Shown here piece after piece: positions 28,443-58,208 of a DNA stretch of 64,000 bases (position 1 is the first letter of the stretch; every line of letters starts with the position of its first letter). The stretch is from Ignavibacteria bacterium (GTDB taxonomy: Bacteria > Bacteroidota > Ignavibacteria > Tepidaquicellales > OLB5). Location of the stretch: the NCBI GenBank assembly GCA_020852705.1, contig JADZAP010000027.1:1-64000 (forward strand). Reading direction: 5' to 3'. A program made the position numbers and the translations under genes. The notes below the pieces were generated by a model. That model was not told the origin of the DNA, did not search any database, and was given only the letters and a program-made list of their open reading frames with translations.

Positions 28443-30187
28443 ATGAAATCAATTATTAAGTTTATCAAAGTAATAATACTTTTATCTATAGTTACCTTAA
28501 ATTTACATTCCCAATGGAATTCTAATACAGCAATTAATACATTAATATGTGATGAGAACGGAGAGCAATCTGTTACAAAGCTTGCACTTTGTCCTGATGG
28601 TTCAACTTATTATTCATGGTTTGATCATAGAGGAAGTGGTTATGCTGTATATATCCAAAAGCTTGATGTGAATGGTTTTACGGTTTTTCCTTCTGGAGGA
28701 ATTTTAGTAAGTAATAATCCTCAGAATTCTTCGTTGGTAGATTGGGATTTGATAGCTGATAATAATAATAATGCAATTATAACCTTTACTGATATACGAA
28801 ACGGTGGTTCAATAAATCCGTTTGCATATAAGATAAGCTCTTCAGGAACGCAATTGTGGGGAGCTAACGGAGTTACATTATCTGATTCAATTAATTCTTT
28901 TCAACCAAATCCTAAAGTTGTACAAACCTCTGACGGTAATTATGTTTTCTTCTGGCGAATCGGTTCAGGTCCTCAAAAGCTTGCTATGCAGAAGCTTAAT
29001 TCTGCAGGGGTAAAGCAATGGGGTGCGTCTCCAATTATATGGTCTAGCGGAACAAATGAAAACTATGACTGGCCGTCAATTGTTGCATCAGATAACGGAA
29101 GTGTTATTGTAATGTTTTCAGGATACACGGGTTCTTTTATCAGTCCCTCAAATTACAGAATATATTCTCAAAAAGTTTCAATATCCGGAACCAAGGTGTG
29201 GAATAGTACACAAGATACCGTTTATTCACTTGGCAGAATTTCAGGGTTTTACACACCCAGACTTTATAGTGATGGAAATAACGGAGCTGTTTATTGCTGG
29301 CATGACGACAGAAATGCAGTAAACCGTACAACAGGTTATATTCAGAGAAAAAATTCATCAGGAGCAATTCAGTTTCCATTGAACGGAACAGCAGTTTCAG
29401 GAAATACAACAAATAACCATTTTACACCTATTGCAGCATATATAGTGCTACAGGTGAAACATATACTGCATGGCAGGAAGCAAATTCAGGGCAGACACAA
29501 TGGGGTTTTTACATTCAGAAAATTAATTCTACGGGTACAAGGCAATGGGGTGATGGTATTGCTGTACAAAGTTTAGGTACAAACCAAGTTGGGATATATA
29601 CAGTTATGACCAAAGACACCGCAGTAGTTATATGTTTTAATCAGGATGCCGGAAGCAATACAAATACGATAAAAGCAGCAAAACTTGGTAAAAGCGGTAC
29701 ATTTTTATGGAGCGGAAGTATTGTTACAGCAAGCAGTATTTCAAGCTCAAAGATCAGGTTAAATTCTGTAATAAACTCATCTGGAATGAGCATTTTAAGC
29801 TGGCAGGATAAACGCAATGATGGAGGCGGAATATATGCTCAGAATATTAATTGGGATGGAACATTTGGTCCTTTAACAGTGATAGAGGTTATAAGCAGTA
29901 ATGTCCCAGATAGATTTTCATTAAACCAAAATTATCCTAACCCGTTTAATCCGGTTACAAAAATAAAATATGATTTAGCATCTTCTTCTTTAGTTAACAT
30001 TTCAGTTTATAATCTGCTTGGAGTATTAGTTGAAGAATTGGTTAATATCAAACAAAATTCAGGCACATACGAAGTAAGTTTTGATGCATCGCAATTTGCT
30101 ACAGGAGTATATTTTTATACTATAAATGCTGTTTCAGAAAGCGGTATGAGATATACAGATACAAAAAAAATGATTTTGGTTAAATAA
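28443..30187 (+). pseudogene. Frameshifted secreted T9SS cargo protein
   Basis: One gene split by a frameshift. Frame 1 runs from ATG 28443 (signal peptide MKSIIKFIKVIILLSIVTL, then NLHSQ) to a stop at 29574-29576. The correct reading continues in another frame from about 29441 to 30187. At the join the DNA reads GCATATATAGTGCT; removing one TA restores A-Y-S-A-T-G-E and then TAWQEANSGQTQWGFYIQKI, which repeats the motif style seen earlier (KISSSGTQLWG, KLNSAGVKQWG). The repaired protein has about 580 residues. The body is made of beta-propeller-like repeats of the form G-x-x-x-W-G. The end is a T9SS sorting domain. Secreted or surface-attached; ligand unknown. It may be a true pseudogene or a sequencing or phase-variation event. 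Confidence 0.85.
29606..30187 (+). CDS. C-terminal fragment of the frameshifted T9SS protein
   Basis: The open part of the second frame from its first ATG, 193 residues. It contains the last propeller-like repeats and, from residue ~110, the type IX sorting domain: FSLNQNYPNPFNPVTKIKYD, a VNISVYNLLG strand, SGTYEVSFDA and GVYFYTI, ending KKMILVK. It has no signal peptide of its own, so this fragment alone could not be exported; it belongs to the gene starting at 28443. Confidence 0.8.
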   Translation: MTKDTAVVICFNQDAGSNTNTIKAAKLGKSGTFLWSGSIVTASSISSSKIRLNSVINSSGMSILSWQDKRNDGGGIYAQNINWDGTFGPLTVIEVISSNVPDRFSLNQNYPNPFNPVTKIKYDLASSSLVNISVYNLLGVLVEELVNIKQNSGTYEVSFDASQFATGVYFYTINAVSESGMRYTDTKKMILVK

Positions 30188-34771: not shown

Positions 34772-35278
34772 ATGAACGATAGTAGCGAACAGATAATCTG
34801 GGAAGGACCACAATCACAGGTTCTTAATTTTGGAATATTTATTTCAATGGGAATAATTTCAATTGTAATAATTGTTGCGGGATTAATATTTTTTCAGCTT
34901 GCGGCTTTTCTTGCTATAATCCCTTTGGTTTACTTGTTTATTAAATGGCTTATTATTCGTAACAATAAATATAAAGTTACAACTGAAAGAATATTTTATA
35001 CAACCGGAATATTTTCAAAAAGAACTGAAGCATTGGAATTATACAGAGTAAGGGATGTTGATATGTATGAGCCATTTTGGCAGAGAATTTTTAAACTTGG
35101 AAATATTGCACTCACAACTTCAGATAAAACAACAATGAACTTTCTGCTTAAAGCTGTACCTCATCCAGCAGAACTAATGAATAAAATTCGTGAAAGTGTA
35201 GAAAAGCGACGTGATGTAAAACGAGTAAGGGGAGTTGAATTTCTTGATGATGAAGATACTGTTGAAAATTTAGGATAA
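34772..35278 (+). CDS. bPH2 (DUF304) membrane protein, YdbS-like
   Basis: 168 residues. An N-terminal IIWEGPQSQVLNFG is followed by two adjacent membrane helices (residues ~18-58), then a bacterial PH domain: NNKYKVTTERIFYTTGIFSKRTEALELYRVRDVDMYEP, read as successive strands, and GNIALTTSD near the end of the domain. The C-terminal tail is charged. Function of the family is unclear. It starts the run that includes the ccm genes and ends 11 nt before ccmC. Confidence 0.85.
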   Translation: MNDSSEQIIWEGPQSQVLNFGIFISMGIISIVIIVAGLIFFQLAAFLAIIPLVYLFIKWLIIRNNKYKVTTERIFYTTGIFSKRTEALELYRVRDVDMYEPFWQRIFKLGNIALTTSDKTTMNFLLKAVPHPAELMNKIRESVEKRRDVKRVRGVEFLDDEDTVENLG

Positions 35279-35289: not shown

Positions 35290-35943
35290 ATGAGTTATGT
35301 TTTAAAATATTTTTTATTTGTTTGGCTGACTGCTGTGATAATTTTTGCAATAGCTGCACCTATTCCTGCTGTAGGTGATATGGGTGAGCGTGCAAGGATA
35401 TTATATTTTCATGTTCCTGCAGCTTGGGTAAGTACTGTTGCATTTATAATGGCACTTTTTTATGGTGCAATGTATATTAAAAAGCGTGATATTATATATG
35501 ACCATAAAGCTTCATCATCAGCGGCTTTGGGTCTCATGTTTGCTGTTTTGGCAACTATTACCGGCGCTATTTGGGCAAGATTTGAATGGGGAGCATTTTG
35601 GAACTGGGATCCAAGGCAGACTTCAATATTTGTATTGATACTTATTTACGGAGCATACTTTGCATTAAGGAGTGCTGTAGAATCAGAGGAGCAAAGAGCA
35701 AAGTTATCTTCGGTATATTCAATACTTGCAGGTATTACAGTTCCGTTTTTTATTTTCGTTTTTCCAAGAATTGTTGAGTCGCTTCATCCAGACCCCATTG
35801 TAAATTCAAGCGGAAAAGTTAAAATGAATACTAATATGCTTCTTATCTTTTTAAGCTCACTTGCAGGTTTTACCGGTATTTATGCTTGGATGATGAACTT
35901 AAGAGTTAGAATTGCAAAATTAAAGCTAAGGGAGGGTAATTAA
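35290..35943 (+). CDS. ccmC: Heme exporter CcmC
   Basis: 217 residues with six membrane helices. CcmC handles heme at the outer face of the cytoplasmic membrane and delivers it to CcmE in System I cytochrome c maturation. The conserved GERARILYFHVPAAWVS contains the first heme-ligand histidine, WGAFWNWDPRQTS is the WWD motif, and IVESLHPDP supplies the second histidine. ATG start, preceded 11 nt upstream by the bPH gene. Its TAA overlaps the ATG of the small ccmD-like gene, so translation is coupled. Confidence 0.95.
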   Translation: MSYVLKYFLFVWLTAVIIFAIAAPIPAVGDMGERARILYFHVPAAWVSTVAFIMALFYGAMYIKKRDIIYDHKASSSAALGLMFAVLATITGAIWARFEWGAFWNWDPRQTSIFVLILIYGAYFALRSAVESEEQRAKLSSVYSILAGITVPFFIFVFPRIVESLHPDPIVNSSGKVKMNTNMLLIFLSSLAGFTGIYAWMMNLRVRIAKLKLREGN

Positions 35944-36065
35944 TGGATTTTATATGGATAAACCAAACATTCATAGTTTTAGGAATAACACTAATTCTTT
36001 GGATTGGACTTTTCTTCTATATGCTTTCTGTTGATATGAAGATCAAGAAAATTGAAAAGGAGTAA
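35943..36065 (+). CDS. CcmD-like small membrane protein
   Basis: 40 residues: MDFIWINQTFIVLGITLILW, one membrane helix, then a lysine-rich tail ending KIKKIEKE. The ATG overlaps the ccmC stop (TAATG) with GGGAGG just upstream, and it ends 4 nt before ccmE. Size, single helix, basic tail and position between ccmC and ccmE fit CcmD, which helps release heme-loaded CcmE. CcmD proteins are poorly conserved, so this rests on context. Confidence 0.8.
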   Translation: MDFIWINQTFIVLGITLILWIGLFFYMLSVDMKIKKIEKE

Positions 36066-36069
36066 ATAT

Positions 36070-36462
36070 ATGAATAAACGATATATTATAGGTGCTTTTA
36101 TTATTATTGTTTTTTTAGTGGTAGGTTTCTACGCATTTGTTGATTCTAAAGTTGAATATTCAAACTTTCAGTATGCAACTGAATCACAGAAGAAATGCCA
36201 GGTAAAAGGCACATGGGTTAAAGAAAAAAAATCAGGGTTTGACCCGCAAACCAATAAATTTACTTTTTATATGGTTGATGAAAATAAAACTGAAATGAAG
36301 GTTGTGCTTGATGGCGCTGAACCCAATAATTTTAAAATGGCGGAAAGTATTGTAGCCAAAGGTAAAATAAAAGACGGTTATTTTCATGCAAGCGAAGTTC
36401 TTACAAAATGTCCAAGTAAGTATGAAGGTGATGGGGAAGATGTAAAGAAATCAAGTATGTAA
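36070..36462 (+). CDS. ccmE: Cytochrome c maturation protein CcmE, CxxxY variant
   Basis: 130 residues from ATG 36070, with AAGGAG 7 nt upstream; a longer reading from 36052 overlaps ccmD and is less likely. One N-terminal membrane anchor (YIIGAFIIIVFLVVGFYAFV) and an OB-fold with VKGTWVKEKKSG, KFTFYMVDENKTEMKVVLDG and VAKGKIKDGYFHASEVL. Where most CcmE proteins have the heme-binding histidine (HxxxY), this one reads CPSKY: Cys114 and Tyr118. CxxxY CcmE proteins are known from some sulfate reducers and archaea. Periplasmic heme chaperone taking heme from CcmC. No ccmA, ccmB or ccmF in the window. Confidence 0.93.
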   Translation: MNKRYIIGAFIIIVFLVVGFYAFVDSKVEYSNFQYATESQKKCQVKGTWVKEKKSGFDPQTNKFTFYMVDENKTEMKVVLDGAEPNNFKMAESIVAKGKIKDGYFHASEVLTKCPSKYEGDGEDVKKSSM

Positions 36463-36536: not shown

Positions 36537-38910
<2,374 letters not shown>

Positions 38911-56063: not shown

Positions 56064-58208
56064 ATGAAGAAGTATCTTTCGTTTTTACTTGTTTTAAGTT
56101 TTATTTCCCTTTCATTTTTATCATTTAAAACTACCGAAAATAAAATAGGCAAAATGCTTTCAAAAGCTTTGAATGATTCCGGTAATAACACATTTGTTGT
56201 ATGGATTTATTTTAAGGATAAAGGTCCGGATGCAATGTTAAAACTAAATAATCCATTAAATATAGTAACGCAAAGATCGCTTGAGAGGCGCTTGAAAGTA
56301 AAACCTGCAAATCAGCTGCTTGATTTTACCGATATACCGCTTTACGTACCATATATTAATATAGTAAATGCTAATGTATTAAAAATTCGTAATTATACAA
56401 AATGGCTTAACAGTTTAAGTGCAGAAGTTACAAAAGAGCAGATTAATACAATTGCAAACTTTGATTGTGTAAAAAAAATAGAGCTTGTTGAGAGGTTTAA
56501 GGTGATTGAAAATGAACCGGAAATTTCAAGTGATTTATCTCCTGTGTTTATAAGTCCTTCAAATGATGCTCCGTTTGCGGATACTTTATCTTATGGCTCA
56601 GGAAATGCCGTAACACAGATTACACAAATAAAAGTAAATCTTGTTCATAATCAGGGAATAAAGGGACAAGGTGTAATGATAGCAAGTTTTGATGCAGGAT
56701 TTTCTAATCTAACCCACGAGGCATTTACAACATACCCAATGAAGATTCAGACAACTTATGACTTCCAGAACCATACTCCGGCATTAACAGGGGACTCGCA
56801 CGGAACAGCTACACTGTGTTTAACAGGCGGATATAAACCCGGAAAAATGATTGGACCGGCATACGGCTCAACTTTTATTTTAGCAAGAACTGAAGTTGAC
56901 CCGAACGAAGTACCTGCCGAAATGGATAACTGGATTGCTGCTGCACAATGGGCTGATAGTCTTGGTGCTGATGTTATCACAAGCTCACTTGGATACCTTG
57001 AGTTTGATCCGCCTTATTCAAGTTACACATGGCAAGATATGGACGGCAACACTTTGCCAATTACAATTGCTGCTGACCTTGCAGTAAATAAAGGGATTGT
57101 GGTTAGTAATTCTGCAGGAAACAGCGGAAACAGTTCTCACAATACATTAGGCGGACCCGCTGATGGTGATAGTGTACTTACCGTAGGTGCTGTTACATCA
57201 ACAGGTATAAGGGCAGGTTTCAGCTCTGTTGGTCCAACTACCGATAACCCTCCAAGAGTTAAACCGGATGTTATGGCAATGGGCAGTAATAATTACTATG
57301 CATCTACAAATGGGAATAATTATTCTTATGGAAGCGGAACATCTTTTTCATGTCCGTTAACATCAGGAGTTTGTGCGTTGATGCTTTCAGCAAATAAAGA
57401 TCTAACACCGATGCAGGTAGTTGGAATATTAAGAAAGTTTGCAAGTAATTCAAATTCTCCTAATAATCAAATGGGCTGGGGTATAATAGATGCATCGCTT
57501 GCAGTTGATTCTGCCCGTAAACTTGATATTTCTGCTCCATTAATACAGCACACTCAGCCCTTTACATCAACAAGTATAAATACAGCTATTACAATGAAAG
57601 CAAGGATAACTGATAATGGTATTATAAGGAACTGGACAAACGAAGCACCTCTGCTTTATTACAGAAAATCTACTAACGGAGGTTCAAACTGGTCAGCATT
57701 TACTCCAATAAATTATACTGCGGTTAATTTAGATACATTTTCATTTGTTATACCCGGCAGTGTAAATGGTACAACTGTACAATATTACTTTGCTGCACAG
57801 GATATTGCATTACCAGCACCAAAAGTTTCAAAACTGCCGGCAGGCGGAGGAGGTATAAATCCGCCGGGAACAACTGCACCGCCTACACGATTTCAATATA
57901 CAGTTGGCATTGTTGGAATTCAGCCGGTATCAAATGAAATTCCTGCGGTATTTAGACTTTATACAAACTATCCAAATCCGTTTAATCCGGTTACAAAGAT
58001 AAAGTTTGATATTGCAAAAAATACAAATGCAAAGCTGTATATATATGATTTGCTTGGCAGGGTAATTGAAACTTTGATAAACGGTGATATTAATGCCGGC
58101 AAGTATGAAATTGATTTCAGCGGTGCTGAACTTTCATCAGGGGTCTATTTTTACAAACTGATTACAAATGAATTTGCTGATACCAAAAAAATGCTGCTTC
58201 TCAAATAA
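56064..58208 (+). CDS. Secreted subtilisin-family (S8) protease with T9SS signal
   Basis: 714 residues. Signal peptide (KKYLSFLLVLSFISLSFLSF), then a propeptide-like region (residues ~30-150) with SAEVTKEQINTIANFDCVKK. The S8 catalytic residues are complete: Asp210 in MIASFDAGF, His246 in GDSHGTATL and Ser427 in GSGTSFSCP; VSNSAGNSG supplies the oxyanion Asn. A beta-rich region (residues ~500-620) precedes the type IX sorting domain: YTNYPNPFNPVTKIKFD, KLYIYDLLGR and SGVYFYKL, ending KKMLLLK. Exported by Sec then T9SS to the surface. Stand-alone. Confidence 0.95.
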   Translation: MKKYLSFLLVLSFISLSFLSFKTTENKIGKMLSKALNDSGNNTFVVWIYFKDKGPDAMLKLNNPLNIVTQRSLERRLKVKPANQLLDFTDIPLYVPYINIVNANVLKIRNYTKWLNSLSAEVTKEQINTIANFDCVKKIELVERFKVIENEPEISSDLSPVFISPSNDAPFADTLSYGSGNAVTQITQIKVNLVHNQGIKGQGVMIASFDAGFSNLTHEAFTTYPMKIQTTYDFQNHTPALTGDSHGTATLCLTGGYKPGKMIGPAYGSTFILARTEVDPNEVPAEMDNWIAAAQWADSLGADVITSSLGYLEFDPPYSSYTWQDMDGNTLPITIAADLAVNKGIVVSNSAGNSGNSSHNTLGGPADGDSVLTVGAVTSTGIRAGFSSVGPTTDNPPRVKPDVMAMGSNNYYASTNGNNYSYGSGTSFSCPLTSGVCALMLSANKDLTPMQVVGILRKFASNSNSPNNQMGWGIIDASLAVDSARKLDISAPLIQHTQPFTSTSINTAITMKARITDNGIIRNWTNEAPLLYYRKSTNGGSNWSAFTPINYTAVNLDTFSFVIPGSVNGTTVQYYFAAQDIALPAPKVSKLPAGGGGINPPGTTAPPTRFQYTVGIVGIQPVSNEIPAVFRLYTNYPNPFNPVTKIKFDIAKNTNAKLYIYDLLGRVIETLINGDINAGKYEIDFSGAELSSGVYFYKLITNEFADTKKMLLLK

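Follow-up and report, generated by a model that had tools for sequence, protein, structure and literature searches.

Cysteine-type CcmE in an Ignavibacteria bacterium and its probable place in a System I* cytochrome c maturation pathway

Positions 36070-36462 (+) of the window, the whole 64,000-nucleotide stretch of Ignavibacteria bacterium DNA analysed here, encode a CcmE of 130 amino acids with a cysteine at the position of the Escherichia coli heme-binding histidine. This CxxxY-type heme chaperone, anchored in the membrane and acting in the periplasm, very probably belongs to a CcmH-less System I*, in which heme would be loaded on C114 and passed to CcmF. The assignment to System I* draws on the genes present, the exchange of histidine for cysteine, the heme-ligating histidines kept in CcmC and CcmF, and the failure to detect either CcmH or a separate ResB. 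The protein is a further case of an already described System I* variant and not a novelty; taken alone, the ccmE gene of the window is an ordinary result.

The ORF matched the Pfam CcmE family (PF03100) with 59.5 bits (4.4e-16), above the curated cut-off of 24.6. The ATG at 36070 was preferred as the start over an upstream TTG (36052) because it is preceded by AAGGAG. In the 130-aa translation the motif stretch reads EVLTKCPSKYEGDG, with KCPSKY replacing the HxxxY motif. In an alignment of E. coli K-12 CcmE (reference sequence NC_000913.3) and 49 relatives, C114 corresponded to E. coli H130 and Y118 to E. coli Y134, a register that agrees with the earlier note on this DNA, which had read CxxxY (C114-Y118) in place of the heme histidine. 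The phmmer alignments to CcmE of both types, from E. coli (8ce8, 1sr3) and Desulfovibrio vulgaris (2kct), displayed the identical register with weak E-values and likewise placed cysteine, not histidine, at the heme position. Codon 114 is TGT (36409-36411).

CcmE was present in 257 of 392 sampled genomes of the phylum, and all 61 of the CcmE sequences read (51 + 10), from many phylum families, had cysteine at the heme position. A degenerate DNA pattern for the KCPSKY-type motif was found in 276 of the 392 genomes, a count that includes some chance matches, the reversed control giving scattered matches. Four CcmE-positive genomes noticed to lack the exact DNA pattern (G126, G160, G164, G208) were read as possible HxxxY exceptions in the phylum and rejected, as all carry cysteine (QCPSKY, KCPSRY, RCPSKY). 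Named genomes were also scanned with two search patterns, one of them the motif itself, so that the result is partly circular; the matches came from MAGs of Ignavibacteria, Chlorobi, Kapabacteria and Bacteroidetes and from a single genome labelled Ectothiorhodospiraceae, all with KCPSKY; the closest named relatives were Chlorobi bacterium OLB5 and the Chlorobiota MAG PMV_1.34. Judged from these sequences, cysteine-type CcmE is the rule in Bacteroidota, and the Ignavibacteria/Chlorobi lineage to which this genome belongs is no exception. The suggestion that a CxxxY CcmE in a Chlorobiota-type genome broadens the group was thus right about the type of genome but not about the form being unusual, as cysteine was found in every CcmE read across the phylum and a 2011 review had already gone beyond Desulfovibrio and archaea, listing cysteine-type CcmE in delta-proteobacteria, Chloroflexi and Firmicutes (PMC3601427). 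CPSKY is the majority motif of this type, in 25 of 36 bacterial genomes (PMC3601427). No paper on the phylum-wide distribution of System I* in Bacteroidota was found in the literature searched, which lacked the primary System I* papers, and we make no claim that it is unreported. With the cysteine form as the norm in a large phylum, more model organisms would be at hand for the making and breaking of the cysteine-heme bond and for the replacement of CcmH.

In the window, ccmE is the last gene of a run ordered bPH, ccmC, ccmD, ccmE. The first gene (34772-35278, +) encodes a bacterial PH-domain (bPH) membrane protein (PF03703, 56.6 bits), and a bPH gene also lies upstream of ccmC in close relatives (loci L035-L037, L091, L092, L094, L099 and L100); we know of no tie between this protein and cytochrome c maturation. 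The heme-handling membrane protein CcmC (35290-35943, +) passed the Pfam cut-off (PF01578, 86.6 bits) but scored under the TIGR01191 ccmC cut-off (118.3 bits against 186). It has WNWD at residue 104, and its H41 and H166 correspond to E. coli H60 and H184, histidines kept in 52 of 52 aligned sequences. A ccmD-like gene (35943-36065, +), whose position is kept in relatives, encodes a small membrane protein of 40 amino acids that matched TIGR04391 CcmD_alt_fam (27.0 bits, cut-off 24) and fell under the cut-off of PF20077 (18.9 bits against 23.5). An ORF on the opposite strand (36537-38153), which looks like a CTP synthase when its translation is read by eye, converges on ccmE. Further away in the window, the products of 29606-30187 and 56064-58208 end in a secretion sorting domain (Por_Secre_tail), the latter product being a subtilase.

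Gene order in relatives was ccmA-B-C-D-E-F in 33 of 86 loci scanned and ccmC-D-E-F in 7 loci. Two ccmE copies were observed in one genome, MAG PMV_1.34, one in the order bPH-ccmC-ccmD-ccmE (L091) and the other in the order tpr-ccmD-ccmE-ccmF (L093). In the window's genome, the pair of tpr and ccmF described below may be such a second cluster that has lost its ccmE. At another locus, a CcmE-like ORF that lacks CxxxY (L105:3384-3764) directly follows a normal CPSKY ccmE, with a similar ORF in L088.

The earlier note had proposed a search of the genome for the other ccm genes, and in the 2.94 Mb genome (97.6% complete) ccmA, ccmB and ccmF were found elsewhere, with ccmC in the run that ends in ccmE. 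ccmB (contig C40, 109754-110365, -) passed the Pfam cut-off and was under the NCBIfam cut-off; the ABC ATPase adjoining it is the genome's best ccmA match (115.6 bits, under the equivalog cut-off of 131.6). In CcmF, encoded on contig C50 (PF16327, 117.6 bits; PF01578, 101 bits), E. coli H173, H261, H303 and H491 all have counterparts, and a WGGYWAWD motif is present. Six cytochrome c domain matches in the genome indicate that clients for maturation are present.

No PF03918 (CcmH) match was obtained at E<=0.001 in this 97.6% complete genome, while E. coli and three further controls did give a match in the same search; a divergent CcmH below the sensitivity of PF03918 may nevertheless be encoded. 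Together with the gene set, this result is consistent with the modified System I without CcmH that had been suggested from the window, and it agrees with System I* as known from Desulfovibrio (PMC3601427). Absence of CcmH is common and not diagnostic, as CcmH is retained by approximately one third of the bacteria with a cysteine-type CcmE (PMC3601427). Across the phylum, PF03918 matches were weak in 11 of 392 genomes and above the cut-off in 4 of 392, and one of the matches read had a sensor-kinase-like sequence. In family f4 of the same class, six loci (L055, L056, L058-L061) encode membrane-anchored proteins that carry a zinc ribbon and a pair of CcmH-like domains (CGCGSC...FIRxxL...KYGGLK and CPCGQC...), and L057 and L066 have shorter CcmH-like forms with a single domain. 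These CGCGSC proteins score 20-30 bits only, and a divergent CcmH may occur in part of a phylum otherwise without CcmH.

Directly upstream of ccmF on contig C50 lies a gene for a lipoprotein of approximately 160 amino acids with a TPR-like stretch (L067:889-1374), which scored 20.8 bits against PF13414, under the cut-off of 26.8. A profile built from 11 relatives detected this lipoprotein in 38 of the 40 genomes sampled from the order, namely all 13 that belong to the family and 25 of the 27 outside it; one match outside the family contains a stop codon. Its C-terminus follows the pattern ALxxYxRVLELDPxNxEA...NKxQIExIYxxMGxPIP, and further copies were seen in L038, L093-L098, L101, L108, L109, L134, L141 and L167. 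In all order-level loci inspected the gene adjoins ccmF, ccmE or ccmC, in several gene orders; more distant homologues, from other families of the class, have no recognisable ccm gene nearby. Since a TPR protein, CcmI, assists System I* in Desulfovibrio (PMC3601427), it is reasonable to guess at a similar role here, and we regard the lipoprotein as a candidate CcmI-like partner. That it evolved independently in the order as a membrane-anchored holder of apocytochromes, an analogue of CcmI/NrfG for a CcmH-less System I*, is a more tentative proposal, to which we give somewhat less than an even chance.

Experiments on System I* have been carried out mainly in Desulfovibrio and archaea. In the pathway proposed here, CcmA, CcmB, CcmC and CcmD would load heme onto C114 of the membrane-anchored periplasmic CcmE, where Y118 would probably serve as axial ligand of the heme. 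Holo-CcmE would then hand the heme to CcmF, which would join it to the CXXCH of apocytochromes without a standard CcmH. From published results for Desulfovibrio desulfuricans and for Methanosarcina acetivorans we infer that the heme on C114 would be covalently bound and that the system would function without CcmH.

Other explanations of the cysteine and of the pathway were weighed against this one. A sequencing or assembly error at C114, or misalignment of an ordinary HxxxY CcmE, retains virtually no probability: a change from TGT to CAT or CAC takes two base changes, so that a single sequencing error cannot account for the cysteine, and the residue sits on E. coli H130. That every one of the 61 CcmE sequences read from the phylum has this cysteine argues that C114 is neither chance nor error, and both error and misalignment were ruled out by this conservation in independent genomes and by the E. 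coli alignment. The separation of ccmE from ccmAB and from ccmF in this genome could be taken to mean that CcmE is a decayed or moonlighting OB-fold protein and that cytochrome c is matured by System II (CcsBA/ResB). This is very improbable, as the genome search gave no PF05140 match for a separate ResB/System II, only a weak 24.8-bit ResB-like score inside CcmF, the sole two PF01578 proteins of the genome are CcmC and CcmF, and ccmA to ccmF are kept together in the 33 relatives' loci noted above; System II was ruled out as the true pathway since the genome search found no ResB.

A further alternative concerns the bond itself: C114 would be a thiolate ligand to a heme held without a covalent bond, and no covalent intermediate on CcmE would arise. 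In vitro, ferric heme is bound non-covalently by D. vulgaris CcmE through its C127 (PMC3884852), whereas the heme-stained band of M. acetivorans CcmE requires the cysteine (C120; PMC9084895), and we consider non-covalent binding unlikely, though less so than either an error or System II. The preferred reading remains a CcmE that would carry heme on C114 and deliver it to CcmF.

The E. coli System I (CcmABCDEFGH) shares with the present system the CcmE register and the equivalents of CcmC H60/H184 and of CcmF H173/H261/H303/H491, and differs in that the present system has cysteine for H130 and no CcmH was detected. System I* of D. desulfuricans has in common with it a cysteine-type CcmE, ccmABCDEF and no detected CcmH; here, however, the system occurs in another phylum, the ccm genes are split over three places in the assembly, and a TPR lipoprotein lies beside ccmF with no recognised CcmI. 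The Ccm system of M. acetivorans (CcmABCEF) also combines a CxxxY CcmE with the lack of CcmH, whereas the present system includes a member of the CcmD family and has one undivided CcmF in place of CcmF1 and CcmF2.
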